Assembly (NCBI GenBank): GCA_021201315.1
Contig: JAJQFG010000074.1
Span: 252-64,251, forward strand
Source of the DNA: Erysipelotrichaceae bacterium
GTDB lineage: Bacteria; Bacillota_I; Bacilli_A; Erysipelotrichales; Coprobacillaceae
Direction: 5' to 3'
DNA length: 64,000 nucleotides
Each line of letters begins with the position of its first letter. Within the stretch, counting starts at the first letter, position 1. A program made the translations under genes and the position numbers. Positions 5,005-64,000 of this stretch are shown piece by piece. Under the pieces are notes generated by a model. It was not told the origin of the DNA. It did no database searches and saw only the letters and a list, made by a program, of their open reading frames with translations.

Positions 5005-5069
5005 GAGGTATTTTATGTCTTCCTAAAATACAAGTAAATAATAGTTAAGCAACTAAGGTTGCTTTTTTT
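5005..5069 (+). other. Strong ribosome site, 3-codon minigene and terminator (remnant or leader)
   Basis: AGGAGG near 5004-5009 is followed by ATG-TCT-TCC-TAA and then a clear intrinsic terminator, AAGCAAC/GTTGCTT with loop TAAG and T run (5047-5069). The initiation signal is intact but the reading frame ends after three codons. It is either the scar of a deleted gene or a leader minigene. The rest of 4934-5132 shows only an AT-rich dyad near 4940-4956 and no other gene. Confidence 0.4.
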
Positions 5070-26660: not shown

Positions 26661-27290
26661 ATGTATACCTATTTTCCAAGTTGTAATTTTACCAGAGCTT
26701 CTATGAAAACAGCTATAAAAGTAAGACAATATTTTAAAGAAAGAATGAATGTGGGAGGATGCTGCCTGCATGATTGTAAAACATATAATGATGATGATAT
26801 TGGTATTATTGTATGTCAAAGATGTCGTCAGGAATTTGAGCCTAAATTAAATGTTATTTCAATATGGGAATATTTGGATCAGGATGAAGACTTTGTATTT
26901 CCTAATTATCGTGGCATAAAGATGAATATACAGGATTGTTATAGAGATAGAAATCACCCTGAAGTCCATGAAGCCATGCGTTCTATCTTAAGAAAAATCA
27001 ATATTGATTATGTAGAAATAGAGAATAACAGAGAAAATGCGGATTTTTGTGGCACATTATATTGTCAACCTGAATCAGAAGCATTAAAAAAAGAATTAGA
27101 AAAATATCCTAATACCGAAACACTTAATTTACCTGAAGAAATAAAAGAAGCTTTAATGAAAGAACATGTATCACAATATACTCAAGAATATATTGTATGT
27201 GATTGTAATCGCTGTTTAAAAGGTATTCAATTAGGTGGAGGTAAAGGTATTCATTTATTAGATTTAGTGTTTGGAGATGTACAATTATGA
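26661..27290 (+). CDS. Cysteine-rich CCG-domain-like protein (HdrB/GlpC-like)
   Basis: A 209-residue soluble protein with many cysteines. YFPSCNFTRAS at the start, a CC pair in GGCCLHDC, and a second half with DCYRDRNHPEVHEAMRSIL...ENADFCGTLYC follow the two-repeat plan of the CCG domain (heterodisulfide reductase B / glycerol-3-phosphate dehydrogenase C). The usual CCG is FCG here. It may bind a non-cubane iron-sulfur cluster or a thiol substrate. It overlaps the following gene by 4 nt and lies 13 nt after the CHR pair, so all may share a transcript. Confidence 0.5.
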   Translation: MYTYFPSCNFTRASMKTAIKVRQYFKERMNVGGCCLHDCKTYNDDDIGIIVCQRCRQEFEPKLNVISIWEYLDQDEDFVFPNYRGIKMNIQDCYRDRNHPEVHEAMRSILRKINIDYVEIENNRENADFCGTLYCQPESEALKKELEKYPNTETLNLPEEIKEALMKEHVSQYTQEYIVCDCNRCLKGIQLGGGKGIHLLDLVFGDVQL

Positions 27291-38300: not shown

Positions 38301-38362
38301 ATGATAATATTATCATAATTATTTGACAAAATTATCATATAGTTGTAATATAGAATTATCAT
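38301..38362. promoter_or_regulatory. Promoter with repeated operator half-sites for the GH1 gene
   Basis: The promoter is TTGACA (38323-38328), 17 nt, TAATAT (38346-38351). A perfect 16-bp palindrome ATGATAATATTATCAT lies at 38301-38316, and ATTATCAT recurs at 38331-38338 (in the spacer) and 38355-38362 (after the -10). These are likely binding sites for the divergent RpiR-type regulator. Confidence 0.7.
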
Positions 38363-38379
38363 AATGAGGAGGAATAAAT

Positions 38380-39846
38380 ATGAGTCGATTACCAGAAGGT
38401 TTTTTATGGGGTGGTGCAACAGCTGATTTTCAATACGAAGGTGGATTTAATGAAGGTGGTAGAGGACTTTTATCACATGATTATGAAACAGATGGATCTG
38501 TTGAAAATCCTAGACATCATACTATGAAAATGAATGATGGATCTATTATTAGACCAAAGAGTTCATTTTTCCGTGCTGATAATGTACCTGAGGAAGCAGA
38601 GCCTGTGTTTTTAGAGGATGAATATTATCCTAGTCATAGGGCTGTTGATTTTTATCATCATTATAAAGAAGATATTGAATTGATGGCAGGTATGGGTTTT
38701 AATGTTTTTAGATTTAGTATTTGTTGGAGTAGGATTTATCCTACTGGGGATGAAGAGTTTCCTAATGAAGAAGGTTTAAAGTTTTATGATGATGTGATTG
38801 ATGAATTAGAAAAGTATGGTATGCAACCACTTATTACCATTTGTCATGATGAATTGCCTATGGCATTAGCTTTAAAATATAATGGTTGGGCATCTAGACA
38901 TGTGATTGATTGTTATGTAAAGTATTGTAAGACATTATTTGAAAGATATGGAGATAGATGTAAGTATTGGTTAACTTTTAATGAGATTAATGCAGTTAGA
39001 GGTTTTGGACCATGTGGTACAAGAGAAAGTGATGGTTATACACGTTATTTAGGTGCACATAACATGTTTGTTGCAAGTGCCAAAGCGGTTAAAATGGGTC
39101 ATGAAATGATGAAGGGTAGTATGTTTGGTGCTATGTATGCGATGAGTGAGTTATATCCAGCTACTTGTAAACCAGAAGATATGTTTCATCATATGCAAGA
39201 AAGAAGAGAAAACTGGTATTTTATTGATACGATGGCTAGAGGTTATTATCATCCTTATGTTAAGGAAATATGGAACCATCATCATGTTGGAACATTGGAT
39301 ATTAGTGAAGAAGATAAGAAGATTTTATTTGCAGGTCAATTAGATTTTGTATCATTTTCATATTATCGTTCTAATACGACTAAAGCAGGTGATCCTTGGT
39401 TTAATGTTGGTGGTAGTTCTAATCCATATTTGGAAAATACACCTTGGGGATGGCCAATTGATGCTTTGGGTTTAAGATATTGTATGAATGAGATTTATGA
39501 TCGTATTCAAAAACCAATCTTTATTGTAGAGAATGGTTTAGGTGCGATAGATGAAGCTGATGAGCATGGTTATGTAGAAGATGATTATCGTATAGATTAT
39601 CTTCAAAAACATTTATCAGCTATGGCTGATGCGATTAATATAGATGGTGTAGATTGTATTGGTTATACAATGTGGGCACCAATTGATTTGGTTTCACTTT
39701 CAACAGGTGAAATGAAGAAACGTTATGGTTTTATATATGTTGATATGGATGATAAGGGGCATGGTACATTAAAACGTACTAAGAAAAAGTCTTATAATTG
39801 GATGAAACATATTATAGAAACCAATGGTGAAGCGTTAGACGAATAA
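38380..39846 (+). CDS. Glycoside hydrolase family 1, likely 6-phospho-beta-glucosidase
   Basis: A 488-residue GH1 enzyme. N-terminal FLWGGATADFQYEGG, the acid/base Glu in LTFNEIN, and the nucleophile Glu in FIVENGLG are present. KKRYGFIYVD near the end carries the Lys-Tyr pair used by phospho-glycosidases to hold the 6-phosphate. Substrate is probably a PTS-imported beta-glucoside phosphate, although no PTS gene is adjacent. AGGAGG site upstream; single-gene unit divergent from the RpiR regulator. Confidence 0.93.
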   Translation: MSRLPEGFLWGGATADFQYEGGFNEGGRGLLSHDYETDGSVENPRHHTMKMNDGSIIRPKSSFFRADNVPEEAEPVFLEDEYYPSHRAVDFYHHYKEDIELMAGMGFNVFRFSICWSRIYPTGDEEFPNEEGLKFYDDVIDELEKYGMQPLITICHDELPMALALKYNGWASRHVIDCYVKYCKTLFERYGDRCKYWLTFNEINAVRGFGPCGTRESDGYTRYLGAHNMFVASAKAVKMGHEMMKGSMFGAMYAMSELYPATCKPEDMFHHMQERRENWYFIDTMARGYYHPYVKEIWNHHHVGTLDISEEDKKILFAGQLDFVSFSYYRSNTTKAGDPWFNVGGSSNPYLENTPWGWPIDALGLRYCMNEIYDRIQKPIFIVENGLGAIDEADEHGYVEDDYRIDYLQKHLSAMADAINIDGVDCIGYTMWAPIDLVSLSTGEMKKRYGFIYVDMDDKGHGTLKRTKKKSYNWMKHIIETNGEALDE

Positions 39847-39877
39847 GAGATGATTTTATAAAAAATCATCTCTTTTT
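39846..39877. terminator. Bidirectional terminator between GH1 gene and trpS
   Basis: A perfect 12-bp stem (39846-39857 with 39862-39873) with 4-nt loop and T run. It overlaps the end of the convergent trpS gene. Confidence 0.88.
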
Positions 39878-40864
39878 GATTGTTATACCAATTTTTCTTT
39901 CAACTTTAGCTAATTTCTTTCTAGCAATAGGTCTTGCTTTAGCAGCTCCTGCTTCTAATACATCATCTAAATAACTACCAGTAGTAATTTCTTTATAACG
40001 TGTTTGGATTCTTTCTAATTCTTCTCCTACAATTTCAGCTAAATCATTCTTAAAGACACCATAACCACAACCTTCATATTGTTTTTCAATATCTTCAATG
40101 GTTCTATTAGAAATAATAGAATAAATCTCTAATAAATTAGAAATACCAGGTTTATTCTCTCTATCATAATAAATACGACTATCACTATCAGTCACTGCTG
40201 ATTTAATTTTCTTCTTAGATACATTAATATCATCTAAAATATAAATAGTCCCTTTATTAGTTTCTTCACTCTTAGACATCTTCTTAGTAGGATTTTGTAA
40301 ATCCATGATTCTGCCTCCAACCTTAGCAACCAAAGGTTCAGGTAACTTAAATGTATCACTATAACGCTTATTAAATCTTTCAGCTATATCTCTACATAAT
40401 TCTACATGTTGTTTTTGATCCTCACCAACAGGTACATAATCAGGATCATATAATAAAATATCAGCATTCATTAAAGAAGGATAATTAAAAATACCAGCAC
40501 CAATACCTTCATCTTTACCTAATTTTGATACTTTATCCTTATACTGTGTCATTCTTGATAATTCACCCATAGACACCATACATCCCAAATACCAACCTAA
40601 TTGTGCATGTTCATACACATCTGATTGTAAAAACAATGTTACCTTTTCAGGATCCAATCCTGCAGCAATATATAAAGCAATCAAATCCCTAGTATTTTGT
40701 CTTAATTCTTTTGGTTCTTGATAAATTGTCATAGAATGCAAATTTGCAATAAAAATAAACATCTCATACTCATCCTGATAAGAAACAAAAGGCTTAATAG
40801 CTCCAATATAATTTCCTAAAGTAACTCTCCCTGTAGGCTTAATCCCACTCAACATTCTCTTCAT
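39866..40864 (-). CDS. trpS: Tryptophanyl-tRNA synthetase
   Basis: A 332-residue class I synthetase charging tRNA-Trp. SGIKPTGRVTLGNYIGA holds the HIGH-equivalent, and KKMSKSEE is the KMSKS loop. Length is the family norm. It is preceded by a T-box leader on the same strand, so transcription rises when tRNA-Trp is uncharged. AGGAGGAAAG lies upstream of ATG. Confidence 0.96.
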   Translation of the reverse strand: MKRMLSGIKPTGRVTLGNYIGAIKPFVSYQDEYEMFIFIANLHSMTIYQEPKELRQNTRDLIALYIAAGLDPEKVTLFLQSDVYEHAQLGWYLGCMVSMGELSRMTQYKDKVSKLGKDEGIGAGIFNYPSLMNADILLYDPDYVPVGEDQKQHVELCRDIAERFNKRYSDTFKLPEPLVAKVGGRIMDLQNPTKKMSKSEETNKGTIYILDDINVSKKKIKSAVTDSDSRIYYDRENKPGISNLLEIYSIISNRTIEDIEKQYEGCGYGVFKNDLAEIVGEELERIQTRYKEITTGSYLDDVLEAGAAKARPIARKKLAKVERKIGITIKKR

Positions 40865-40882
40865 AACTTTCCTCCTATAAAT

Positions 40883-41101
40883 AAAAAAGTCCTCCTATAA
40901 AGGACGACTAAGCGCGGTACCACCTTAATTTATGCGAAGCATACACTCTCATCTTAACGCGATCAACGATAAATGACTCATGCCATCTATAACTCCAGAA
41001 CCCCAATTTCATTCATACTCATGACTTGTTTTCACCATCCACAAGCTCTCTTATTCAATCCTATGAAATACTTCATTCCTTCTTAGTTTTTCTTATTATA
41101 A
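40883..41101 (-). ncRNA. T-box leader of trpS
   Basis: On the minus strand the leader ends with the T-box sequence AAGGTGGTACCGCG (plus-strand 40913-40926), followed by a terminator: AGTCGTCCT/AGGAGGACT (arms at 40901-40909 and 40888-40896, one mismatch) and a T run at 40883-40888. Upstream are a GGTG box and stem I sequence containing TGG triplets. I did not fix the exact specifier codon; the Trp call follows from the downstream gene. Confidence 0.9.
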
Positions 41102-41107
41102 ATAGCT

Positions 41108-41135
41108 TTTATATAAAAATCAATAGCTTTATCAA
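41108..41135 (-). promoter_or_regulatory. Promoter of the trpS T-box transcript
   Basis: On the minus strand TTGATA (41135-41130) and TATAAA (41113-41108) are separated by 16 nt, placing the start near 41101. Confidence 0.65.
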
Positions 41136-41193
41136 AAAAAGAAATTTACAAATAATTTAAAAGTTGTATAATACTAGAAATGGAGATGATGTT

Positions 41194-41643
41194 ATGATAA
41201 GAATTTATACAGCACCTAGTTGTGCATCTTGTAGAAAAGTAAAAGCTTGGTTAAAAGAGCATCAAATTCCTTATGTTGAAAAGAATATCTTTTCAACACT
41301 ATTAAGAGAAGGAGAACTTAGAGAACTATTAGAACGTAGTGAAAATGGTACCGATGATATTATTTCTAAAAGATCTAAGATCATTAAAGAAAATAAAGTT
41401 AATATAGATGATATGTCAGTCAATGAACTGATACATTTTATCCAAGAAAATCCTTCTATATTAAAACGTCCAATCATCATAGATGAAAGACGTTTTCAAG
41501 TAGGTTATAATGCTGAAGAAATAAGAGCATTCATTCCTCGTGAACTTAGAAGATTACAAGAATGTAATAGTAGTGATTATTGTCCACAATTTACAGATAT
41601 TAAACAAGAATATTATAAAGATAAGTGTTTAGAGAAGAAATAG
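41194..41643 (+). CDS. spx: Spx/ArsC-family redox regulator
   Basis: A 149-residue Spx protein that binds the RNA polymerase alpha subunit and redirects transcription under disulfide stress. The redox switch C10-x-x-C13 is present and the C-terminal core LKRPIIIDERRFQVGYNAEEIRAF is typical of Spx rather than arsenate reductase. ATG 41194 has GGAGATG upstream; a longer start at 41164 has no support. Single-gene unit. Confidence 0.92.
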   Translation: MIRIYTAPSCASCRKVKAWLKEHQIPYVEKNIFSTLLREGELRELLERSENGTDDIISKRSKIIKENKVNIDDMSVNELIHFIQENPSILKRPIIIDERRFQVGYNAEEIRAFIPRELRRLQECNSSDYCPQFTDIKQEYYKDKCLEKK

Positions 41644-41669
41644 GCAGTATTATGTCTATTTTTATTTTA
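41638..41669 (+). terminator. Terminator of spx
   Basis: A 9-bp stem (41638-41646 with 41653-41661, one G-T pair), 6-nt loop and T-rich tail; it includes the stop codon. Confidence 0.7.
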
Positions 41670-41690: not shown

Positions 41691-41746
41691 AATTTATGTG
41701 CATTTCACATAAATTCTTGATTATTTACAAGCATTGGTTTTATAAT
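41691..41746 (+). promoter_or_regulatory. Promoter of the giant adhesin with upstream operator-like dyad
   Basis: TTGATT (41717-41722) and TATAAT (41741-41746) are 18 nt apart. A perfect 10-bp inverted repeat AATTTATGTG-CATTT-CACATAAATT (41691-41715) ends 1 nt before the -35 box. Its TGTG-N5-CACA core looks like a regulator site of the Crp/Fnr style, but no regulator is identified. Confidence 0.6.
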
Positions 41747-41767: not shown

Positions 41768-42946
41768 ATGAGTAGAAGAGAGAAAAACATACTTTTCAAG
41801 ATTTCTAAGATTATCTTATCTCTAGTAATGATTATTTCATTATTTGATATTTCTAGCATAAATACTTATGCTACTGAAGTAGAAGAAGAGCAAGAAACAG
41901 AAGAAATCGTTGATAGTAGTGAGGAAACAGAAGAAACTGAAGAAACAAGTGAATTGGTTACTTATACAGCTGAAGCTGGTGATATAAAGGTTAGTGTGGA
42001 AACTTACTCAGATGCTTTGCCAGAAAATGCAGAATTGGTAGCTACACTTTATGATGAAGATAGTGATGAATATAGTGAAGCTAGTGATATTATTGAATTG
42101 GATGATGATTCAAGTATGGTAGCTTTAGATATTTTATTTATGGTTGATGGGGAAGAAGTTGAACCAACTCAAGAAGTTAGTGTGACTATTGATGCGTCTG
42201 CAGTTATTGATGAAGATGTTGACGCATCAACCATTGAAGTACAACACTTAGAAGAAAATGATAATAATATAACACCTACACTTGTAGCTGATAGTCAAGA
42301 AGAATCAGAAGGTACAATCACAGATGCCATTGCTGAATTTACTGTTGACAGCTTTTCTACTTTTACAATTACTTGGAGCGCCGGGGGGGGAGGAAATACA
42401 AAAAGACAACAAATAACTGCTACAACATACTTAACAGGCACTTCAACAACAATAGGAAGTGGAAATACTACTATATCAGCTAATTCAGGAACCACTGTAG
42501 ATTTAACAAGTAGTAATTCAGATTTAGCTATTGATGGTTATACTTTAACAAGTGCTAAAATTACTTATAATGGTACAACTTATGATGCTACTGATATAAC
42601 TGTGGAAATATCAGTTTCTACAACAGGTCAAGGATGGCAGCAAACTACTACCACTACTTATACAGTAACTTACACTGATTCTTCTGGTACAACACATAAT
42701 CTTGTTAGTAATTCACAAACTTCTCCTACTATAACAATTGCTTTATATTATACACCAGATCCTTCTATAACAATTAGCGAAGATTCAGGAAATGATACTG
42801 ATGGATATACATTAAGTGCTAAAACAGATTCTTATTATGATTATGATACTGATGACGATGGAACTTCTGATATAATATGGTCTTTAGACAATGATAGCAA
42901 GGCAACTATTACTGATAATAGTGATGGAACTATTACAGTTAAATGA
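41768..42946 (+). CDS. Giant CnaB adhesin, N-terminal part up to in-frame TGA
   Basis: 392 codons. The start is a signal peptide (MSRREKN, hydrophobic helix, predicted cleavage after INTYA), then an acidic Glu/Thr-rich stretch and beta-rich segments, the last resembling an Ig-like domain (IIWSLDNDSKATITDN). A G8 tract lies at 42383-42390 within codons for AGGGG. The TGA at 42944-42946 interrupts the frame in the middle of the Ig-like segment; the identical frame then continues to 62569. AAGGAG precedes ATG 41768; an earlier in-frame ATG (41696) lies inside the promoter. If TGA is a true stop, this fragment is secreted but not anchored. Confidence 0.85.
   Translation: MSRREKNILFKISKIILSLVMIISLFDISSINTYATEVEEEQETEEIVDSSEETEETEETSELVTYTAEAGDIKVSVETYSDALPENAELVATLYDEDSDEYSEASDIIELDDDSSMVALDILFMVDGEEVEPTQEVSVTIDASAVIDEDVDASTIEVQHLEENDNNITPTLVADSQEESEGTITDAIAEFTVDSFSTFTITWSAGGGGNTKRQQITATTYLTGTSTTIGSGNTTISANSGTTVDLTSSNSDLAIDGYTLTSAKITYNGTTYDATDITVEISVSTTGQGWQQTTTTTYTVTYTDSSGTTHNLVSNSQTSPTITIALYYTPDPSITISEDSGNDTDGYTLSAKTDSYYDYDTDDDGTSDIIWSLDNDSKATITDNSDGTITVK
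42383..42390 (+). repeat. G8 homopolymer tract in the adhesin 5' region
   Basis: Eight consecutive G in very AT-rich DNA, inside the coding frame at about codon 206. Slippage would shift the frame of the whole gene. Confidence 0.95.
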
Positions 42947-45900
42947 GCTGATGATGTAACACCTGGTGATACTGTAACAGTTACAGCAAAAGCTACAAAT
43001 GAAGAGGGTACAGAAGTTGTTGATACTTATACTTTAACTTATGGCATAGAAACTTTAACGATTACTGTAAAAAATAGTTCTAATAATAATCGTACATTAG
43101 AAGGTGCAACTGTTGAATTATACGATGAATCAGGTAATCTTGTAGCAACCGGAGATACTGATTCTAATGGACAAGTGACTTTTTCTGTTATACCAGGCGA
43201 TTATACTGTAAAAGCATATTATGTAAGTAATAGTACAACATATACTGGTACAAATAGTGAAGTTACTGTAAATGAAGGATTGGCAAATTCTGCAACTGTA
43301 ACTGTTGCTTCTGGATATTCAGTTGATCATATTGATATATCAATATTAGCTAAAGCAACTATTACATTAAATGGAAATCCACTTACAGAAACTATCACAT
43401 TGACACAAGATGATTTTAATGGGAAGAATGATACTATATGGTCTATAACAACTAGTACAGGAGATACTTATATTATTTCAGGTTTAAGTACTAGTACTGA
43501 TTCTTCAAATACAAGTCAAATACGTTTTGATGGGGTATTTCCTATAGGTGATAAAGATAATCCGGTATATTATACTTTTACTTTTGTTAAAATGGTGACA
43601 TTTACAGATAGTAATGGAAAGACCTATGAAGTTGAAATGACATTTTCTGCTACATTTAGTTATTGGGATGATGATAATGAATGCCCAGGGCTTGGAGGTA
43701 ATTGGTCAACAAATAAGAAATATCAAAATGGTTCAGGTATGGATTTTACATTATCTGCTGAAGCAACTGCTAATACAATGACAGTATATAAATATGTCGA
43801 AGATACTAAAGGTAATTATTTAGATGCATCAGATACAACTTATGAGTTTACAATATATAAATTTAATATTTCAACAAATGAATATGAAGTATATAAAACC
43901 ATAACATTAAATCCAACTTCAAATGGACTTGCTATGAATACTTTCCAAATTGAAGATGGAACATATTATATAGAAGAAAGTAGTTATTCTAGTAGTGTAA
44001 CAGTATCGAATACTTCATATCCTTATCAAAGTACTAATATTACCATAGCAAAAGATGGTGAAACTATTTACAATGGAGATGTTATAAAAAGTGATACATT
44101 TATAGTAAGTGGTAATGCTATTACAGTTTCTGTAACGAATTATTATGAACCAGTTACAAGTATTCCTATAACAAAAGTATGGGTTGATGATGGTTCATCA
44201 ACACCAGATTCTATATCAGTAGATGTTTATCAAAGTGTTACTGTTAATGGTGAAACGGCAACTAATAAATACGGTACTTATACATTAACTTCAACAGGAA
44301 CCGATGTTAATGTAACAGTTGATAATAATGGTAATTGGACTTATACGGTAGAGAATTTACCTATGTATGATTCATCAGGAAATGAATATACATATACTAT
44401 TAAAGAAGTTTCTGTAGAAGATTATAGTAGTAACATTATAAAAAACGATGATGGTAGCTATACTATTACCAATACGGAATTAACAAGTATTCCTATAACA
44501 AAAGTATGGGTTGATGATGGTTCATCAACGCCAAATTCTATATCAGTCATACTAAATCAAAGCGTTATTATTAATGGTGAAACAACAACCAATGAATACG
44601 GTACTTATACATTAACTTCAACAGGTACTGATGCTAATGTAACGGTTGATAATAATGGTAATTGGTCTTATACAATTAGTGATTTACCTAAGTATGATGC
44701 TAATGGTGTTGAATATACTTATACAATTGATGAAGATTCAATAACTGGATATAGTAGTGTCATTACAGGAAATGCTAGTACAGGCTATATAATCATGAAT
44801 ACTGAAACAACAGAAATAACAGCAACGAAAGTATGGGATGATAATAGTGATGTTAATTCAACAAGACCTGATTCTATTACATTAGAGTTATTAGCAAATA
44901 GTACAATTGTTAAGGATACAGTTACCTTAACTGGAATTGGTAATACCTGGACATATCAATTTACTAATTTGGATAAATATGATTCAGACGGCAAAGAAAT
45001 ATCTTATACAGTTCGAGAACTTGATGGTACTAATGTAATTTCAGATCTTACAACTTTTTCGGGTAAAAACGGATCAACATATCTTGTGACATATGATGAT
45101 ACTAATAATACAATAACGAATACATTACAAGCTGGAAATTTATCAATTAGTAAAACATTACATGGTGGGGACACAAGTACAGAATTTGAGTTTACTGTTA
45201 CATTAAATGATGATAATACTAATAATTATACTTATGCTACTACGACTACTGATGGAACCAGTACTTCAAATGGAACAATAAAATTTACAAATGGGGTTGC
45301 TACAGTATATTTAAAAGGTGGAGAAACATTAACAATTATTGGACTTCCAACTGGAACAGAATATACAGTAACAGAATCTAATTCAAGTGGTTATATACTT
45401 GTGTCAGGCAGCAATACAAAGGGAACAATTACGACTGGTGGAACTTCTTCAGCATCATTTGTAAATAGTGAATCAACTGATATTACTGTTACAAAGTTAT
45501 GGAATATAGCAGCAGGATATTCGATTACCTCATATCCTGATACGACACTTGTTTTAACTGGAACTGCAACAAATGGATATACTCAAACATATCTTATAAC
45601 TTCTACTGATAATGAAGTAACTATAGACAATTCAACTGGAGAATGGTCATATACATTTGAAGATCTTCCATTGTATACAAGTGATGGATATGAAATAACA
45701 TATACAGTTTCTGAATCTGGTGTGAATGAGTACTCTTTGATTACACTGGAAGGAAAAACATACTATGTGACAGTAACAGAAAATCAGAACAGTTATACAG
45801 TTACAAACAATTACCCTACTACAAATGTACAAATCACAGGAACTAAGACATTAACGCTTAATGAAAAAGCACTGGATTTAAGTGGTTATACATTCGATTT

Positions 45901-48900
45901 TACAATAACTGAAGTAGCAGATGCATCAGGTACAGAAAAGACAGGAGGATATACATCACAAGGAACATATAGTGTAGATAGCACAAACAATACTATAGGC
46001 AATATATTATTTAGCATCAATTATACGACTTCTGATATTGGAACACATTATTATAAAATTACAGAAAACTCTAGTAATTATAATTATGTTACTGATGCTT
46101 CTAGCTCATATATTGTAGAGGTGGTTGTAGGGAAAGATACAGATGGTAATTTAACTACAGAGGTAACATATTTAAATAATAGTATCAACTTTGAAAATAC
46201 TATTGACACAGGAAGTCTATCAATAACAAAGAAACTTAATAATGAATATGTAACTGATACTAGTACAAAATTCCCATTTGCTATCACATTAACTAATACT
46301 TCAGTAAATGTTAATGGAACTTATGATTATACTATTAGTGATTCATCAGGTACTGCATCAACAGGTAAAATAACATTTGCTAGTGGCACTGCATCAGTAT
46401 TGCTCTTAGCAGGACAGACAATTACAATTGCAGGACTACCAGTAGGTACAACATATTCGATAACTGAAAACGAAACAACTGGATATGAAAATGTCACAAC
46501 TGATAATACATCAGGAACAATCAGTACATCAGAATCATCTGTGACATTTACGAATAAGGCTATAACTGAGGTAAAAGTCACAAAAGCATGGAATGACAAT
46601 AGTAAAAGTCATACAAGCGATGAAATCATAGTCAAGCTTATGAATGGTACAACAGAAGTGACTACAGCTACCTTGAATAATAGTAATAGCTGGTCATATA
46701 CATTTACAAATCTTGATAAGTATGACGCTGATGGTAAGGAAATTGAATATACTATTGAAGAAGTTTCTATAAATGGATACAACAGCGTCATTACAGGAAG
46801 TGCTTCAGCAGGCTATAAGATCACAAATACTGAAACAACTGAAATAACGGCAACAAAGGTATGGGAAGATAATAGTAATATTAATTCAACAAGACCTACT
46901 TCCATTACATTAGAGTTATTAGCTAATGGAAATGATGTTGTAAAAACAGTCACTTTAACTAAGGACTCTTCAGGTGTTACTGTAGATTCAACAAGAAATC
47001 AGTGGACATATACATTTAGTGATTTAGATAAGTATGATTCATCTGGTAATCTGATTACTTATACAGTTCGTGAACTTAATGGTAATACTGTTATAGGTAA
47101 TGGAAATACAATTTTAGGTGATAATGGATCAACATATAGCGTAACATATAATGATACTTCCAATACAATAACTAATACATTACAAGCTGGAGATTTATCT
47201 ATTAGCAAAACATTATATGGCAATGATACAACTACAGAATTTGAATTTACTATTAAATTAGATGATACTAATAATAATTATACTTATGCTACTACTACAT
47301 CTGATACAATAACATTCACAAATGGAGTTGCTACAGTAAATATAAAGGCTGGAGAAACATTGACAATTATTGGGCTTCCAACAGGAACAAAGTATACAGT
47401 AACAGAAACAAGTAAAAGTGGTTATACACTTGTATCAAGCACTGGAACAACAGGAACAATTGAAACTGGCAAAACATCATCAGCAAGCTTTGTAAACAAT
47501 GAATTGACTAATGTCACTGTAACGAAGATATGGGATGATAACGATAATATCAATAGTACTAGACCTGACACCATTACATTAGCTTTATATACAAAAACAA
47601 CAACATTGAATGCAAGCAGTGGAGAAGAAGAAACTGAATATACTTATATGTGTAAGTATGTAACTTTAACTAAAAATAGTGATGGAACAGTATCAGCTGT
47701 TGAGACAGATGTTTCAACTGGAACTACTACCTCTTCAAATGCAACTGTTACTAGTAATAATAAGTGGTCTTATACTTTTACAGGCTTGGAAAAATATGAT
47801 TCAAACGGAAATGAAATCGTATATGTTTTTCGAGAAATATCTGATGGAACACTTAGTACGATATATGCTGAAGGTAACACCTTTGCTGGTAATAATAATG
47901 TCTTATATACTGTAAGTTATAATGAAGATAGTAATATTGTAACAAATACATTAAGTACAGGGAATCTATCTATTAGTAAGACTGTATATGATGATTCAAG
48001 TAGCGATACATCATTTGATTTTAGTATAGTTCTAACAAGAGATGATAATGGAAATACGACTTATGTTAGTGGAATATATAATTATATTATTAGTGATTCA
48101 TCAGGTACGGTATCAACAGGTACGATAACATTTGGTTCAGATGGAAAAATTGAAGCAGTGAAAGGGACAGCTGCGACTTCTATTCAATTGACAAATGGTC
48201 AAACAATCACAATCTATGGACTTCCAACTGGAACAATATATACAGTAACAGAGGCAAGTACAAATGATTATGTTTTAATTACAGATAACGCCCTTACTGG
48301 AACAATTGCAAAGGATAGTACATCTTCAGCACGTTTTATAAATAGTAAATCAACTGATATTATTGTTACAAAGTTATGGGATATAGCAAGTGGATATACA
48401 ATTGATTCATATCCTGATACGACACTTGTTTTAACTGGAACTGCAATAAATGGATATATTCAAACATATCTTATAACTTCTACTGATAATGAAGTAACTA
48501 TAGACAATTCAACTGGAGAATGGTCATATACATTTGAAGATCTTCCATTGTATACAAGTGATGGATATGAAATAACATATACAGTTTCTGAATCTGGTGT
48601 GAATGAGTACTCTTTGATTACACTGGAAGGAAAAACATACTATGTGACAGTAACAGAAAATCAGAACAGTTATACAGTTACAAACAATTACCCTACTACA
48701 AATGTACAAATCACAGGAACTAAGACATTAACGCTTAATGAAAAAGCACTGGATTTAAGTGGTTATACATTCGATTTTACAATAACTGAAGTAGCAGATG
48801 CATCAGGTACAGAAAAGACAGGAGGATATACATCACAAGGAACATATAGTGTAGATAGCACAAACAATACTATAGGCAATATATTATTTAGCATCAATTA

Positions 48901-51900
48901 TACGACTTCTGATATTGGAACACATTATTATAAAATTACAGAAAACTCTAGTAATTATAATTATGTTACTGATGCTTCTAGCTCATATATTGTAGAGGTG
49001 GTTGTAGGGAAAGATACAGATGGTAATTTAACTACAGAGGTAACATATTTAAATAATAGTATCAACTTTGAAAATACTATTGACACAGGAAGTCTATCAA
49101 TAACAAAGAAATTTAATAATGAAAATGTAACTGATGATACTCAATTTTCGTTTGCTATCACATTAACTAATACTTCAGTAAATGTTAATGGAACATATGA
49201 TTATACTATAACGAATTCATCTGGTATAGTATCAAAAACTGGTAAGATAACAGTTGCTAATGGTGTTATATCAGCAGTTGATGGAACAACTACTACATCA
49301 GTATCATTATTAGCTGGACAGACAATTACAATTACAGGGTTGCCAGTCGGTACAACATATTCTGTAAGCGAAAATGATATGACTGGATATGAAAATGTCG
49401 ATTATAGTGGTACCTCAGGAACAATAACTACGAATGAATCATCAGCAATATTTACAAACAAAGCAGTTACAGACGTAGCAGTGACAAAAGTATGGAATGA
49501 CAATAATAACATTAACGATACTAGATTAGATATTATTACACTAGCGTTATATACGAGTGATGGAGTTTATGCAAATAAATATGTAAACATAACATCTGAT
49601 TCTATTGGAAATCTATCAGCTGAAGAAACTGATACAACAACGTCAACCAGTATTGATACTTCTTCAAATATAATAGTCAATAATGACAATAGCTGGTCAT
49701 ATACTTTTATAGGATTAGATAAATATGATTCAAGTGGGAATGAAATCACATATGTCATTAAAGAAGTATCATTGAATAATGATGGAACAATTAAAACATC
49801 ATATGCTAGTGGTGATACATTTACTGGTTATAATGGTGGTGTTTATACTGTTAGTTATGTTAATAATACTGTAACAAATACCTTAAATACGGGAGACTTA
49901 TCTATTAGTAAGACTGTATATGAAGATTCAACTAGTAATACGTTATTTGATTTTAGTATAGTTTTAACAAGAGTAGAAAACAGTAGCCCTGTATATGTTA
50001 GTGATACGTATAATTATATTATTACAACTGATGGTTCAACTGAAACGAAATCAGGTACAATAACATTTGGTTCTAATGGAACAATAGAAAAAGTAGATAA
50101 CAATTCTGCAACAACTATTCAGTTAAAAGGTGAACAGACTATAACGATTTATGGATTGTTAAATGGGACAACCTATGAAGTAAAAGAATCTAGTGCAAGT
50201 GGTTATGTGCTTGTGTCAAGCAGAAATACAACAGGAACAATTGTAACGAATGGAACGTTATCAGCAAGCTTTGTTAACAGTGAATCAACTAATATTGTTG
50301 GAACAAAAGTATGGAAAGACAATAGTGATGCGTATGGAACACGACCAGCATCAGTAACAGTCAATCTGCTTCAAAACGGTACACAGATTAATTCAACAAC
50401 AGTAACCTCAAGTGATGGTTGGAAATATACATTCGATAATCTTGCCAAGTATGACAGTGCAGGTAAACTTTATGAATATGCAGTTACAGAGGAAGCTGTA
50501 TCAGGATATGAAACGGTTGTTACAGGAAATGCGATAGATGGATATACTGTCACAAATACACTGACCGATACAACAAGTGTAGAAGTTAATAAAGTATGGA
50601 AAGACAACGGCAATGCGTATAATACGAGACCAACATCAATAACAGTCAATTTGCTTCAAAATGGAACAATTATTAAAACTGTTGATGTGACAGGTGATTC
50701 TTTAAGCAGTGACTGGTCATATACGTTTAACAATCTTGACAAGTATGACAGCGATGGAAAGATGTATACATATACAGTTACAGAGAATTCGGTTGAAAAC
50801 TATACAACAAGCATTGATGGAACAACCATCACTAATACATTAACAGGTATAACGAGTGTAGAAGTTAATAAAGTATGGAAAGACAACGGCAATGCGTACA
50901 ATACGAGACCAACATTAATAACAGTCAATTTGCTTCAAAATGGAACGATTATTAAAACTGTTGATGTGACAGGTGCTTCTTCAAGCAGTGAATGGTCATA
51001 TACGTTTGACAATCTTGACAAGTATGACAATGATGGAAAGAAGTATACATATACAATTACTGAAGAAGCTGTTTCAGGCTATACAACAAGCATTGATGGA
51101 ACAACGATTACAAATACACTGACTGATATAACAAGTGTAGAGGTTACTAAAGTATGGAAAGACAATAGTAATGCATATAATACAAGACCGACATCAATAA
51201 TAGTCAATTTGCTTCAAAATGGAACAGTTATTAAAACTGCTGAGATGACAGGTGATTCTGCAAGTAGTGACTGGTCGTACACATTTAAAGATCTTGATAA
51301 GTATGATAGTACTGGCACGCTTTATAAATATACAGTTACAGAGGATGAAGTATCAGGTTATACAACAAGCATTGATGGAACAACGATTACAAATACACTA
51401 ACTGGAACAACAAGTGTAGAAGTTACTAAAGTATGGAAAGACAATGGAAATGCATACAATACAAGACCAACATCAATAACAGTTAATCTGCTACAGAATG
51501 GAACAACCATTAAAACAGTTGATGTGACAGGTAATTCTTTAAGCAGTAGCTGGTCATATACGTTTAATAATCTTGCCAAGTATGATAGTGATGGAAAGAA
51601 GTATACATATACTATTACAGAAGAAGCTGTTTCTGGTTATATAACAACCTATAATGGCTATAACATAACCAATACAATAACAGGAACTGTAGATATAAGT
51701 GGAGAAAAGACATGGATTGATGGAAACAAGAATCATGACAATGAAAAAGAGATTACGCTGACATTAACGAGAGTAAGTGCCAAGGCAGGCTCAACAAGCG
51801 AGACAGTAACAGCAACTGTTGAATGGAGTGGAAATACCTATACATATAGCAATCTTCCAAAATATGATTCAGAAGGCTATGAATATACATACACAGTAAC

Positions 51901-54900
51901 CGAAGCAGTAATTAGTGGATATAAAACGACTTATGATGGTTTTAATATAACAAATACACAATTAACAGATATTACGGTTACAAAAGTATGGAAAGATAAC
52001 AGTGATGCTTATGATACAAGACCAAATTCTGTTACAGTTGTGTTATATGCTAATGATAGTCAAGTTGTAGATACAGTTGCTTTATCTGGAACTGATGATA
52101 CATGGACATATACATTTAGTAACTTAGATAAGTATGATTCTAAAGGTGACGAAATTAAATATACAGTTCGTGAAGTTATTGTAAATGCAGATGATAGTAA
52201 GACAGTTGTTTCTAGTATTTCAGGTGAAAACAGTTCAACATATACTGTAAAGAATGAAGATACTGATACTGGTACAACCATCACGAATACACTAACTGGT
52301 ACAACTAAAGTTACTGTTACGAAAACATGGAATATCAAAGATAATATTGTTAATGAACCAACATCTAATATTGCTATTACATTAACAGGCAGTGATGGTT
52401 CAACATATAACGGTACATTAAGCTCAACTAACTGGACATGGACAAAAGAAGATCTTCCATTATATACAAGTGAAGGAAAATTAATAACTTATTCTGTTGT
52501 AGAAACTAATGCCAATGGTCATTTGGTAGATATCGATGGTTTAACATATTATGTTGAATATAACAGTACTACTGATGCTGATGGTAATACCATCTTAAAC
52601 ATCACTAATAATTATCCATATATTTCTACACAAATTGTTGGTAGTAAGACTTTAACGTTGAATAACACAAATCTGGATTTAGAAGCTAATCAATTTGAAT
52701 TCCTGATTACTGAAGTTGATAGTGAAGGTAATATATTATATGATTCTGATAATGATGTATTATATAGTGAATCTACAACCAATAGTGCAGATGGAAGTAT
52801 TGTATTTGATCTTTATTATACTTTTGATGATGTAGGTACTCATTATTATAAGATTACAGAAGTCAAAGGAAATGATGATAACATTTCATATGATATCAAT
52901 AGCTCTTATATGGTAAAAGTTGTAGTGACTGAATCAAATGGAACATTGAATGTTTCAGAGCCTGAATATTTAGATGGAAGTATAACATTTGAAAATACAG
53001 TTATTAGAGGTTCATTAACGATTAATAAGACAGTTGAATCTAATGATTCAAGTATGTCATTAGATAGAACATATCAGTTCACAGTTACAACAGGTTCAGC
53101 TGATACAAATGATTTAGTTTATTATGATAAAGATGGCAATAGTTCAGATAGTGAAGTCTATGTAGAATTAACAACTAATAGTTCTGGTAATGGAGATGTT
53201 ACAATTGGTAATTTACCAGTAGGAACATATACAGTTACAGAAGTGAATGGAGCTATTGATGGATATATTTTAGATGTAACTGATAATGGTATCATTAGTG
53301 TGACTTTAGATGAAGATCATACAGATATATCAGCTAACTTCACAAATACATATTCACAGTTGACAGATATTACGGTCACAAAAGTATGGAAAGATAATGG
53401 TAATGCATATAAGACAAGACCAACATCAATAAATATCAATCTACTTCAAAACGACTCAATCATCAAAACTGTTGAAGTCAAAGCCGATACTAATGGTGAC
53501 TGGTCATATACATTTGAAGATCTCGATAAATATGATAACACTGGTACGCTCTATAAATATACGGTTACAGAGGAAACAGTATCAGGTTATGAAACAGCTA
53601 TTACTGGAGATGCAACAGATGGATTTACTGTCACAAATACATTAACAGGTACAACTAAGGTTACAGTTACAAAAGAATGGAATATTAATGTTACTGGTGT
53701 AACTGAACCAACAACTGATATTGATGTTACATTAACAGGTAGTGATGGTTCTACATACAGTGGTATATTAAGTTCATCTAACTGGACATGGGCAAAAGAA
53801 AACCTTCCATTATATACAGATGAAGGAGTATTGATAACTTATTCAGTTGTTGAAACTGCAGCTAACGGCTCTTTAGTAGATATCGATGGTCTAACATATT
53901 ATGTTGAATATGATAGTAGTACTGATTCTAATGGAAATACTATCTTAAATATCACGAATAACTATCCATATATTTCTACAACAGTTGTTGGTTCAAAGAC
54001 TTTAACGTTGAATAACACAAATGTGGATTTAGAAGCTAATCAATTTGAATTCCTGATTACAGAAGTAGATAGTAAAGGTAATACAATATATGATGTGAAT
54101 AATGATGTATTATATAGTGATACAACTACAAATAGTGCTAATGGAAGTTTTGCATATGATATTTATTATACATCTGGTGATGTAGGTACTCATTACTATA
54201 AGATTACTGAAGTCAAAGGTAATGATGAAACTATTGCATATGATACAAATAGCTCATATATGGTAAAAGTTGAAGTAAGTGAATCCAATGGTACATTGAA
54301 TGTTTCAGAGCCTGAATATTTAGATGGTAGTATTACATTTACAAATACAGTTATTAGAGGTTCATTAACGATTAATAAGACTGTTGAATCCAATGATCCA
54401 AGTATGTCATTAGAAAGAACATATCAGTTCACTATTACAACGGGTTCTACAGATACAAATGATCTTGTATATTATGATAGTGATGGCAATGTTTCACAAG
54501 ATAAAGTCTATGTTGAATTAAAGACTAATAGTTCTGGTAATGGAGATGTTACAATTGATAATTTACCTGTTGGAACCTATACTGTTACAGAAGTGAATGG
54601 TGCTATTGATGGCTATGATTTAGATGTCACTGATAATGGTATCATTAGTGTAACATTGGATGAAGATCATACTGATTTAACTGCAGATTTCACTAATACA
54701 TATTCACAATTAACAGATTTCACTGTTACAAAAGTATGGAAGGATAACAGTGATGCATATGATACAAGACCTGATTCAGTTATAGTTGTATTATATGCCA
54801 ATGGAACTGAAGTCAAAGATACAGCCACTTTAAGTGGTACTGATGATACATGGACATATACATTTAGTGACTTAGATAAGTATGATTCTAAAGGTAACGA

Positions 54901-57900
54901 AATTAAATATACGGTTCGTGAAGTTATTGTAAATGCAGATGATAGTAAGACAGTTGTTTCTAGTATTTCAGGTGAAAACAGTTCAACATATACTGTAAAG
55001 AATGAAGATACTGATACTGGTACAACCATCACAAATACTTTAACTGGTACAACTGATGTTACAGTCACAAAAACATGGAATATCTATAATCATATTGTAA
55101 CTGAACCAACATCTAATATCGCTATTACATTAACAGGCAGTGATGGCTCTACATATAGTGGTACATTAAGTTCAGCTAACTGGACATGGACAAAAGAAGA
55201 TCTTCCATTATATACAAGTGGAGGAGAATTAATTACTTATTCAGTTGTAGAAACAAATGCCAATGGACATTTGGTAGATATTGACGGTTTAACATACTAT
55301 GTTGAATATAACAGTACTACTGATGCTGATGGTAATACTATCTTAAACATCACTAATAATTATCCACATATTTCTACAACAGTTGTTGGTACAAAGACTC
55401 TAACATTGAATGGAAAAGAAGTTACATTAGAAGATGATCAATTTGAATTCTTGATTACAGAAGTTGATAGTCAAGGCAATATATTATATGATTCAGATAA
55501 TGATGTATTATATAGTGACACAACTACAAATAGTACAGATGGAAGTATTGTATTTAATCTTTATTATACTTTTGATGATGTAGGTACTCATTATTATAAG
55601 ATTACTGAAGTCAAAGGAAATGATGATAACATTTCATATGATACTAATAGTTCATATATGGTAAAAGTTGAAGTAACTGAATCCAATGGTACATTGAATG
55701 TTTCAGAGCCTAAATATTTAGATGGAAGTATTGAATTTGAAAATACAGTTATTAGAGGTTCATTAACGATTAATAAGACTGTTGAATCTAATGATTCAGA
55801 TATGTCTTTAGAAAGAACATATCAGTTTACTGTTACAACAGGTTCTGTAGATACAAATAATCTTGTATACTATGATAAAGATGGAAATAGTTCAGATAGT
55901 GAAGTCTATGTTGAATTAAAGACTAATAGTTCTGGTAATGGAGATGTTACAATTAATAATCTGCCAGTAGGAACCTATACTGTTACAGAAGTGAATGGAG
56001 CTATTGAAGGCTATGATTTAGATGTTACTGATAATGGTATCATTAGTGTAACATTGGATGAAGATCATACTGATTTAACTGCAGACTTTACAAATACATA
56101 TTCACAGTTGACAGATATTACGGTCACAAAAGTATGGAAAGATAATGGTAATGCATATAATACTAGATCTGAATCTATAACGGTTAATCTGCTACAGAAT
56201 GGAACAACCATTAAAACAGTTAATGTGACAGGAGATTCTGCAAACAGTGAATGGTCATACACATTTGAGAATCTAGATAAATATGACAGCAGCGGAAAGC
56301 TTTATACATATACAGTTACAGAGAATGAAGTATCAGGATATAAGACAGCAATTATAGGAGATGCAGTAGATGGATTTACTGTCACAAATACTTTGACAGG
56401 TACAACTAAGGTTACAGTTACAAAAGAACGGAATATAAATGCTACTGGTGTAACTGAACCAACAACTGATATTGATGTCACATTAAAAGGCAGTGATGGT
56501 TCTACATATAGTGGTACATTGAGTTCAACTAACTGGACATGGACAAAAGAAGGTCTTCCATTATATACAACTGAAGGCGAATTAATTACTTATTCTGTTG
56601 TAGAAACCAATGCTAAAGGACATTTGGTAGATATCGATGGTCTAACATATTATGTTGAATATGATAGTACTACTGATTCTAATGGAAATACTATCTTAAA
56701 TATTACGAACAATTATCCATATATTTCTACAACAGTTGTTGGTAGTAAGACTTTAACATTAAATGGAAAAGAAGTTGCATTAGATGATGATCAATTTGAA
56801 TTCTTAATTACTGAAGTAGATAGTCAAGGCAATACATTATATGATACTGATAATAATGTATTATATAGTGATACAACTACTAATAGTAAAGATGGAAGTA
56901 TTGTATTTGATTTATATTATACACCTGATGATGTGGGTATTCATTATTATAAGATTACTGAAGTTAAGGGTAGTGATGATACGATTGCTTATGATACTAG
57001 TTCATATATGGTTATGGTTGAGGTAACTGAATCAAATGGAACATTGAATGTTTCAGAGCCTGAATATTTAGATGGAAGTATTGAATTTGAAAATACAGTT
57101 ATTAGAGGTTCTTTAACGATTAATAAGACTGTTGAATCCAATGATTCAAATATGTCATTAGAAAGAACATATCAGTTCACTATTACAACAGGTTCTACAG
57201 ATACAAATGATCTTGTATATTATGATAGTGATGGCAAAGCTTCACAAGATAAAGCCTATGTTGAATTAAAGACTAATAGTTCTGGAAATGGAAATATTAC
57301 AATTAATAATCTACCAGTAGGCACCTATACTGTTACAGAAGTGAATGGAGCTATTGAAGGCTATGATTTAGATGTTACTGATAATGGTATCATTAGTGTA
57401 ACATTGGATAAAGATCATACTGATTTAACCGCAAACTTTACGAATACATACTCACAGTTAACAGATATTACAGTTACAAAGGTATGGAAAGACAACAGTG
57501 ATGCTTATGATACAAGACCAAATTCTATTACAGTTGTATTATATGTCAATGGAACTGAAGTTAAGGATACAGTCACTTTAAGTGGAACTGATGATACATG
57601 GACATATACATTTACTGGCTTAGATAAGTATGATTCTAAAGGTGACGAAATTAAATATACGGTTCGTGAAGTCATTGTAAATGCAGATGATAGTAAGAGT
57701 GTTGTCTCTAGTATTTCAGGAAAGAATAGCTCAACATACACTGTTATAAGTAAAGATACTGATACTGGAACAACTATTACGAATACATTAACTGGTACGA
57801 CAAGTGTTACAGTCACAAAAACATGGAAAATTTATGTTGATAATGTTACAGTACCTACTACTGATATTGATGTGACTTTAATAGGCAGTGATGGTTCTAC

Positions 57901-60900
57901 ATATAGTGGTACATTAAGTTCAACTAACTGGACTTGGACAAAAGAAAATCTTCCATTGTATACAGATGAAGGAGAATTAATCACTTATTCAGTTGTTGAA
58001 ACCAATGCCAATGGTCATTTGGTAGATATTGATGGTTTAACATATTATGTTGTATATAGTAGCACTACTGATGCTGATGGTAATACTGTCTTAAATATCA
58101 CAAACAGTTATCCATATAAATCTGTTGAAATTGTTGGAACAAAGACTTTAACATTGAATAACACTAATGTGGATTTAAAAGCTGATCAATTTGAATTCTT
58201 GATTACAGAAGTTGATAGTAATGGCAATACATTATATGATTCTAATAATAATGTATTATATAGTGATACAACTACAAATAGTGCAGATGGAAGTATTGTA
58301 TTTGATCTTTATTATACTTTTGATGATGTAGGTGTTCATTATTATAAGATTATTGAAGTCAAAGGTAATGATGAAACTATTGCATATGATACAAATAGTT
58401 CATATATGGTAAAAGTTGAAGTAACCGAATCAAATGGAACATTGAATGTTTCTGAACCTGAATACTTAGATAATGATATTACATTTGAAAATACTGTTAT
58501 TAGAGGTTCATTAACGATTAATAAGACTGTTGAATCTAATGATTCAAGTATGTCATTAGAAAGAACATACAAGTTTACTGTTACAACAGGTTCTACAGAT
58601 ACAAAAGACCTCGTATATTATGATAAAGATGGCAATGCAACAGATAGTGAGGTTTATGTTGAATTAAAGACTAATAGTTCTGGTAATGGAGATGTTACAA
58701 TTAATAATCTACCAGTAGGTATATATACAGTTACAGAAGTGAATGGTGCTATTGATGGATATACTTTAGATGTAACTGATAAAGGTATTATTACAGTTAC
58801 ATTGGATGAAGATAACACTGATGTATCAGCTAACTTTACAAATACCTATTCACAATTAACTGATATTACGGTTACAAAAGTATGGAAAGACAATGGAAAT
58901 GCATATAATACTAGACCTGAATCTATAACGGTTAATCTGCTACAGAATGGAACAACCATTAAAACAGTTAATGTGACAGGAGATTCTGCAAACAGTGAAT
59001 GGTTATACACATTTGAGAATTTAGATAAGTATGACAGCAGCGGAAAGCTTTATACATATACAGTTACGGAGAATACTGTTTCTGGATATGAAACAAGCAT
59101 CGATGGAACAACAATTACCAATACTTTAACAGGTACAACCAATGTTACTGTTACAAAAACATGGAACATTAAAGATGATACAGTAACTGTACCAACAACT
59201 GACATTGATGTTACATTAAAAGGTAGTGATGGTTCTACATATAGTGGTACATTAAATTCAACTAACTGGACATGGACAAAAGAGAATCTGCCATTATATA
59301 CTGATGAAGGCGTTTTGATTACATATTCAGTTGTAGAAGCAAATGCCAAGGGTCATTTGGTAGATATCGATAATCTAACATACTATGTTAAGTATGATAG
59401 CACAACAGATACTGATGGTAATACTATCTTAAATATTACAAATAATTATCCATATATCTCTACTGAAGTTGTTGGTAGTAAGACTTTAACATTGAATGGA
59501 AAAGAAGTTGCATTAGATGATGATCAATTTGAATTCTTAATTACCGAAGTAGATAGTAAAGGTAATACATTATATGATACTGATAATGATGTATTATATA
59601 GTGAAACTACTACAAATGGTGCTGATAGTAGTATTGTATTTGATCTTTATTACACTCCTGATGATGTGGGTATTCATTATTATAAGATTACTGAAGTTAA
59701 GGGTAGTGATGATACGATTGCTTATGATACTAGTTCATATATGGTTATGGTTGAAGTAACTGAATCCAATGGAACATTGAGTGTTTCAGAGCCTGAATAT
59801 TTAGATGGAAGTATTGCATTTGAAAATACGGTTATTAGAGGTTCTTTAACAATTAACAAGACTGTTGAATCCAATGATTCAAGTATGTCATTAGAAAGAA
59901 CATATAAATTTACTGTTACAACTGGTTCATTAGACACAAATGATTTAGTTTATTATGATAAAGATGGCAATGCAACAGATAGTGAAGTTTATGTTGAATT
60001 AATAACTAATAGTTCTGGTAAAGGATTTATTACAGTGGATAATTTACCAGTAGGAACCTATACTGTTACAGAAGTGAATGGAGATATTGATGGCTATGAA
60101 CTTGATGTTACTGATGATGGTATCATTAGTGTAACATTAGATGAAGATCATACTGATTTAACTGCAGACTTTACGAATACATATTCACAGTTAACCGATA
60201 TTACAGTTACAAAAGTATGGAAAGACAATAGTGATGCCTATGATACAAGACCTGATTCAATTACAGTTGTATTATATGCCAATGGAACTGAAGTTAAAGA
60301 TACAGTCACTTTAACTGGAACTGATGATACATGGACATATACATTTAGTAATTTAGACAAGTATGATTCTAATGGTGATGAAATTAAATATACAGTCCGT
60401 GAAGTTATCGAAAACGTAGATGGTAGTAAGAGTGTTGTTTCTAGTATTACTGGAGAGAATGGCTCAACTTATATTGTGACAAATAAAGACAGTGATACTG
60501 GAACAATTATTACCAATACTTTAACTTCTACAACTGAGTTAACTGTTACAAAGGTATGGCATATTGATGGTGATGAGGTTTTACCAGTACCTATTACTAT
60601 TGCTTTATATGCTAATGAAGAAAAGGTAAAAGAAATGACGATTTCATCAATTACTGATGGTGTTACAGTTAATAGCGATGGAAGTTGGAGTTATACATTT
60701 ACTGATTTAGATGAATATGATGCTAATGGTACATTGATTGATTATTCTATTAAAGAAGTAGGAGAATCAGATGGTATTATGAAAGTCATATATGATGATG
60801 GTAGTGTAGCTGTGTTTGGTGTGTCATATGATGAAGAAACCAATACGATTACAAATAGTTATCCAGTTCGTATGGATATTGCGATTGTTAAGGAATGGCA

Positions 60901-62656: not shown

Positions 62657-64000
62657 ATGAATTATTTAAACACATACGAATTTATTGAATTATTTGATGA
62701 AACTGTTCATGATAATATTTATGTAGATAAATCATTACTCATTGATAAAATATCAGCATGTATTAGTAAACGTTCTGAAAAATTTATATGTATTACTCGT
62801 CCTCGTAGATTTGGAAAAACTTATAATGCTAATATGTTAGCAGCTTATCTTACAAAAGGATATGATACAAGATCTTTATTTGATCATTTAAATATTGCTA
62901 AGACAGATAATTATTTAAAACATCTTAATCAATATAATGTTTTATATATCAATATGAGTATAATGGGAGATGAATGTTCTTCTTATAAAGAATATATTAC
63001 ACGAATAAAAAGTAATATTATTTCAGACCTTAAATTGCAATATCATATAGATTTACCAGAAGGATTACCTATCTGTGACTATTTTAAAGAAACCAAAGAT
63101 TCTTTTATATTCATTATCGATGAATGGGATAGTATTTTTTATGAGGATTTTATGGATGAATTTCAAAATAAAAAATATTTAAAATTTTTAAAAGAACTTT
63201 TTAAAGATATGCCTTATGTTCAATTAGCTTATATGACAGGAATATTACCTATCGCTAAATATTCATCTGGATCAGAGTTGAATAATTTTAAAGAATATAA
63301 TTTTATCAATGATCGTAAATACACTGCTTTCTTTGGCTTTACTGAATTAGAAGTTAATCAGCTTTGCAATGAATATTCAGAAATTTCTTATCAAGAATTA
63401 GAGTATTGGTATGATGGTTATTATACGATGGATAATAAAAAGCTTTTTAATCCACGTAGTGTTTCCAATGCGCTAAGTAATGGTTATTGTGATAATTATT
63501 GGACAGAAACAGGTCCAATGAGTGAAATATCAGATTGTATTAAAAATAATGTCGATGCTGTTAAAAAAGATATCGTACAATTAGTATCAGGTATTCCAGT
63601 TAAAATTAAGCTTGAAGGCTATAGTGCTACTGATAAAGAATTAAAATCAAGAAATAATATTTTATCAGCTATGACTATATTTGGTTTTTTAACATATCAT
63701 CATGGGTGTCTTTATATACCTAATCATGAGTTAATGCTTAAGTATGAACAGGTATTATCTCAAAAGAATATGGGTGGCGTTTATGATGTGGTAAAACGTA
63801 GTGAACAAATTTTAGAAGCCACTTTGACTCAAGATGAAGTAACACTAGCTAAGATGATAGAAGAAGCACATGATAAGGAAATAGATTTGTTTAGCTATAA
63901 TAATGAAAATAGTATGGCATGTTTATTGACGTTGTGTTATATCAAAGCTAGAGATGATTATGATATTAGACGTGAAGATAAGAGTGGTAAAGGCCGTTGT
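62657..64000 (+). CDS. AAA-ATPase-like / PD-(D/E)XK protein, copy 3, cut by window edge
   Basis: 448 codons are visible, open to the window end. It is a diverged relative of the genes at 19858 and 21452: ITRPRRFGKTYNANMLAAY (Walker A), FIFIIDEWDS (Walker B), MTGILPIAKYSSGSELNNF, and WYDGYYTMDNKKLFNPRS follow in the same order. The last visible residues, KSGKGRC, correspond to the start of the nuclease core (GNGFAD in the others), which must lie beyond the window. GAGGTGA precedes the ATG. Function unknown. Confidence 0.86.
   Translation, partial: MNYLNTYEFIELFDETVHDNIYVDKSLLIDKISACISKRSEKFICITRPRRFGKTYNANMLAAYLTKGYDTRSLFDHLNIAKTDNYLKHLNQYNVLYINMSIMGDECSSYKEYITRIKSNIISDLKLQYHIDLPEGLPICDYFKETKDSFIFIIDEWDSIFYEDFMDEFQNKKYLKFLKELFKDMPYVQLAYMTGILPIAKYSSGSELNNFKEYNFINDRKYTAFFGFTELEVNQLCNEYSEISYQELEYWYDGYYTMDNKKLFNPRSVSNALSNGYCDNYWTETGPMSEISDCIKNNVDAVKKDIVQLVSGIPVKIKLEGYSATDKELKSRNNILSAMTIFGFLTYHHGCLYIPNHELMLKYEQVLSQKNMGGVYDVVKRSEQILEATLTQDEVTLAKMIEEAHDKEIDLFSYNNENSMACLLTLCYIKARDDYDIRREDKSGKGRC

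Follow-up and report, generated by a model that had tools for sequence, protein, structure and literature searches.

A single in-frame TGA in a giant Cna_B-repeat adhesin gene of an Erysipelotrichaceae bacterium, most probably a recent nonsense change

The gene of a giant adhesin in the genome of an Erysipelotrichaceae bacterium is interrupted at codon 393 by an in-frame TGA. Very probably this stop arose by a recent nonsense substitution, which would leave a truncated secreted stub and an untranslated remainder of 19.6 kb. Three explanations had been offered in the original prediction, i.e. a nonsense change, readthrough of the stop, or a sequencing error. The first of these is the best supported one, since relatives are intact, decoding in the genome is standard, no second lesion is found downstream, and other genes of the same genome are interrupted as well. 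This reading rests on the consensus sequence of one genome of the species.

The Interrupted Reading Frame

The window, which is the whole stretch of 64,000 nucleotides that was analysed, contains the adhesin gene with the following features:

41164..41643, plus strand: upstream neighbour gene, which marks the same locus in a congener (G002)
41691..41715, plus strand: perfect inverted repeat with arms of 10 nucleotides and a 5-nucleotide spacer, in the stretch that separates the adhesin gene from its upstream neighbour
41768..42943, plus strand: upstream open part, whose 392 codons encode a signal-peptide-like start, an N-terminal region and the beginning of an Ig-like domain
42383..42390, plus strand: run of eight G within the upstream open part; as read, it keeps the frame
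42746..43078, plus strand: Ig-like beta-sandwich domain containing the stop, from a five-copy alignment and the predicted fold of a relative
42944..42946, plus strand: in-frame TGA at codon 393, from translation and codon counts; a sense codon in relatives
42947..62569, plus strand: downstream part, 6,540 sense codons plus TAG

From ATG 41768 to the TAG at 62569 the frame comprises 6,934 codons including the terminal stop. Translation and codon counts bore out the claim that it holds a sole internal stop, the TGA at 42944–42946. In total one TGA, no TAA and one TAG, the terminal one, are found in this frame, and the remaining two frames of the same strand contain 496 and 1,192 stops between 41768 and 62569. 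A non-coding frame of about 6,900 codons would by chance contain far more than one internal stop, so the region is one reading frame with a single lesion. ATG 41768 is the correct start rather than ATG 41696, the first ATG of the mechanically derived ORF: the former is preceded by AAGGAG with a duplex energy of −7.9 kcal/mol, while the latter scores only −0.9 as a ribosome site.

The signal peptide and the wall anchor which had been assigned to the two parts are both recognisable by eye. Residues 1–36 look like a signal peptide, and the C-terminus, with VQTGD, a hydrophobic stretch and a basic end, resembles a sortase signal; a Pfam search of the adhesin reported no anchor family. The upstream part is 57–60% identical to relatives. 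Downstream of the stop follow a prealbumin-like domain, about 31 Cna_B-type repeats, which exceed the Pfam cut-off, an antigen I/II C2-like domain and the wall-anchor-like tail.

Some further features of the locus were inspected. The eight-G tract is the window's sole homopolymer of G or C to reach six bases, is absent from two relatives, and might be a slippage site. In the genome, with a GC content of 30%, runs of eight or more G occur at four places, and only the one in the window lies well inside a long frame; phase variation by G runs was therefore dropped as a general mechanism. Inverted repeats were listed with regard to a recombinase-driven upstream inversion, and none was convincing. 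The upstream neighbour gene is, as we take from its sequence, ArsC/Spx-like. The gene downstream of the adhesin (window positions 62657–64000) has a copy with 82% identity on another contig, C123 (locus L022, 2031–3374), and this contig ends in the N-terminal part of another adhesin.

The Stop-Bearing Domain and Its Intact Relatives

The domain containing the stop measures about 110 residues, and no Pfam family exceeded its cut-off there. For the copy of an intact relative a seven-strand beta sandwich was predicted with a mean pLDDT of 73, and a Foldseek search with it returned weak Ig-like matches (best E 0.016). The label Ig-like given in the original prediction thus stands as far as the predicted fold is concerned and is without a Pfam match; the name appears reasonable, not proven.

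At the column of the stop a sense codon is found in all four other copies of the domain which were aligned, and when the copy of the window is read through under code 4 the five copies share one conserved residue at this column. In the congener G002 the adhesin lies at a syntenic locus, 3.35 kb of the upstream flank (window 38317–41662) being 90% identical to its contig C230, and the frame is open across the stop column up to the end of the contig. A paralogue on contig C97 of the bacterium's own genome likewise has a frame open across this column. At the G002 locus a tyrosine-recombinase gene (L018, 3910–4974; Phage_integrase family) lies directly upstream of the adhesin, and at the C97 locus (L019, minus strand) a similar recombinase ORF is seen by eye just upstream; in the window, unlike in G002, the flank is followed by the adhesin with no recombinase gene in between. 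Also in G002 an upstream gene, named GH1-like by resemblance (L018, 446–1919), is split into two frames.

The N-terminal part of the adhesin matches one of three congeners and, across all genomes searched, six of 98 including its own, the others mostly weakly. Since so few genomes are matched, the gene is accessory as judged by sequence comparison. Viral contigs, searched for exact matches to 23 bases whose end lies within the stop codon, yielded nothing, and a plasmid search was equally negative.

Sequencing and Assembly

An error of sequencing or assembly is an unlikely source of the stop, and so is a minority allele taken into the consensus, even though the assembly is a draft of 2.99 Mb in 136 contigs (the window being positions 252–64251 of contig C109) with scaffold gaps of 100 N beside and inside adhesin loci. 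The end of contig C123 (L022) and the start of contig C136 (L053) moreover have a stretch of 56 bases in common, beyond which the sequences diverge on both sides; this points to an unresolved repeat or, alternatively, to recombined N-terminal modules. The 201 bases around the stop, however, match only themselves and one stretch of 36 bases with 86% identity in the whole genome, and no 15-mer starting in 42801–43100 recurs in the window. As the site is unique by both counts, collapse of a repeat in the assembly is an improbable source of the stop. The further interrupted genes of the same genome likewise speak against an error.

Other Interrupted Genes in the Same Genome

A Cna_B search of the genome gave 56 domain matches in four genes. 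One of these, an adhesin gene on the 7-kb contig C136 (L053), has two in-frame stops, TAG at 5008–5010 and TGA at 5680–5682, in a frame which is otherwise open up to an anchor-like tail. The search was extended to related genomes, 13 of at least 19 others with matches being taken (G017, G020, G026, G028, G034 and G041 were left out). With 275 hits in 35 regions of 14 genomes two stops were found, both in the C136 gene, which corresponds to two in 54 hits of the own genome versus none in 221 hits of the 13 other genomes. On this result the idea that stops are usual across the family of Cna_B adhesins was rejected. As only stops inside Cna_B hits or in the stretches between them are detected in this way, the stop of the window itself is invisible to the survey.

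A control for interrupted genes of other kinds covered 452,985 bases in 26 loci of the own genome. It surveyed in-frame stops, not frameshifts. Of the 112 same-frame neighbour pairs obtained, 36 looked coding in both members. In 28 of these a supported start lay within 20 codons and they were left uninspected. The other eight were inspected or already known, seven having no supported start within 50 codons and one having a start at +34; two of the eight (L055 and L130) were judged by eye to be separate genes. Besides the two adhesins the following interrupted genes emerged:

L123, 10781: GH1 glycosidase gene with an in-frame TGA
L122, 7961–7963, minus strand: AAA-ATPase/PD-(D/E)XK gene with an in-frame TAG
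L124, 790: PD-(D/E)XK transposase-like gene with an in-frame TAG, its downstream part without a Pfam match

Together these are six stops in five genes, three TGA, three TAG and no TAA. The stop site of the window is thus not special within its genome. Three stops in 40 kb of adhesin DNA versus three in 413 kb of other DNA gave p 0.012 in a Fisher test, a value which is indicative only because the sample was not random, adhesin loci having been included on purpose, and because two of the three adhesin stops sit in one gene.

Decoding of the UGA Codon

A profile search of the genome found prfB, encoding release factor 2, at 506 bits, well over the cut-off of 370, and in the window TGA terminates genes in the ATGA overlaps at 11791–11794 and 27287–27290. 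From these two findings UGA is a working stop. The anticodons UCA, CUA and UUA of suppressor tRNAs occur in none of 41 tRNAs, as determined by ARAGORN on loci covering the 41 matches of the genome search, and the one copy of tRNA-Trp has the anticodon CCA; the set of 41 looks incomplete in that some expected tRNAs are absent, and a tRNA may have been missed. The components of selenocysteine insertion stayed below their cut-offs in the own genome, selB with at best 194 of 242 bits and tRNA-Sec with at best 42.7 of 47 bits. The RNA following the stop (42941–43040) folds no better than shuffled sequences (z 0.06) and thus gives no sign of a stimulatory structure. UGA as a sense codon was rejected on the prfB match and the lack of UCA among the 41 tRNAs, a suppressor tRNA on the lack of any suppressor anticodon in this set, and selenocysteine recoding on the sub-threshold selB and tRNA-Sec together with the missing structured element after the UGA. 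Recoding at codon 393 therefore has no support.

Programmed or leaky readthrough of the UGA, which would yield some full-length adhesin and had been the second option of the original prediction, found no positive evidence in the tests of release factor, tRNAs, selenocysteine machinery and RNA structure, and it is very unlikely. Low-level misreading of UGA is general in bacteria, and three observations fit readthrough: the undamaged downstream frame, the C136 adhesin with its TAG and TGA in an otherwise open frame, and the absence of TAA among the six stops. The last is weak evidence of anything: of all single substitutions that would turn a codon of the window gene into a stop, about half give TAA, but among transitions only 60 of 235 do. 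Readthrough is further opposed by the occurrence of both TAG and TGA, which no single recoding covers, by the glycosidase, AAA/nuclease and PD-(D/E)XK genes in the interrupted set, and by relatives which carry no stop at this column. Its probability is nevertheless not set at zero, as an excerpt of PMC6540521 describes pseudogenes some of which still express full proteins via frameshifting or tRNA suppression.

A special form of this idea would be that UGA and UAG stops in giant adhesins and a few other genes act as a tolerated or used low-level brake, which is still less probable than readthrough as such. That rare readthrough would then place few full-length adhesins on few cells, with the frame kept under selection, is just as improbable; such selection would account for the lack of additional lesions.

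Age of the Lesion

No second lesion is present in the 6,540 codons downstream of the stop. There 2,833 of 58,860 single substitutions (4.8%) would create a stop, and from zero further stops at most about 61 unconstrained downstream substitutions, or 0.3%, have occurred since the lesion (95%). This result fits a recent lesion and a frame under continuing constraint equally, and the data do not separate the two; the intact remainder, counted in favour of a nonsense change, also fits a frame which is still used. Preference is given to a recent lesion, as there is no support for decoding beyond the TGA.

Start Sites Downstream of the Stop

The claim that the downstream part has no ribosome site held near its beginning, where the best score among nine in-frame starts up to 43934 was −3.0 kcal/mol; genes of the window mostly score between −5 and −10, with four of the 15 listed between −3.8 and +1.0. 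A short secreted protein followed by a separately started giant protein can practically be dismissed: although GTG 43175 opens an ORF of 6,464 codons, it lacks a good ribosome site (−2.4 kcal/mol), the stop cuts one domain which is whole in relatives, and the relatives have a single frame.

Proposed Course of the Gene Loss

With the recent nonsense change as the preferred reading, a single substitution would have turned codon 393 of an accessory, wall-anchored giant adhesin with Cna_B repeats into an ordinary UGA stop. Translation from ATG 41768 would end there through release factor 2, and the product would be a protein of 392 residues with a signal peptide and without a wall anchor, to be lost to the medium or degraded. 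From the remaining 19.6 kb, with no good ribosome site near its start and no signal peptide, no surface adhesin would be made. The change is presumably real and fixed in the strain, and loss of the adhesin was presumably neutral or favoured; the fate of the stub outlined above is also a presumption. When the strain is annotated, the ORF of about 6,500 codons beyond the stop should not be counted among its functional surface proteins. The case is most likely a common kind of gene loss rather than a new decoding trick, and a wider importance would come only from demonstrated readthrough.

Comparison with Known Systems

Literature searches for such a case in Erysipelotrichaceae, and for a giant adhesin with a premature stop, gave nothing closer than the following systems among the matches listed. 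In Listeria monocytogenes premature-stop alleles of internalin A (InlA) are, according to an excerpt of PMC10299213, nonsense changes leading to a truncated surface adhesin, and a study cited there refers in its title to truncated and secreted InlA. The present gene is alike in that a nonsense change truncates a surface adhesin. It differs in that InlA is an established invasin, surveyed across strains of a pathogen, whereas the present gene is read from the sequence of one genome of a gut-type bacterium. FnbA and FnbB of Staphylococcus aureus strain Newman are likewise described as nonsense-truncated adhesins in an excerpt of PMC3369899; they belong to another adhesin family and host, and in the present adhesin the stop is followed by about 94% of the frame. 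The giant adhesin SiiE, a very large Ig-repeat protein that is degraded in particular lineages (PMC6540521, in excerpt), resembles the present gene in size, repeats and degradation. SiiE, however, belongs to a Gram-negative bacterium and leaves the cell through type I secretion (PMC7302871, in excerpt), while the present protein has a wall-anchor-like tail of Gram-positive type and Cna_B repeats. Nonsense loss of surface adhesins is thus already well known, and the present case is probably a further example, which would add a Gram-positive gut-type bacterium to those in which a large adhesin was lost through a nonsense change.
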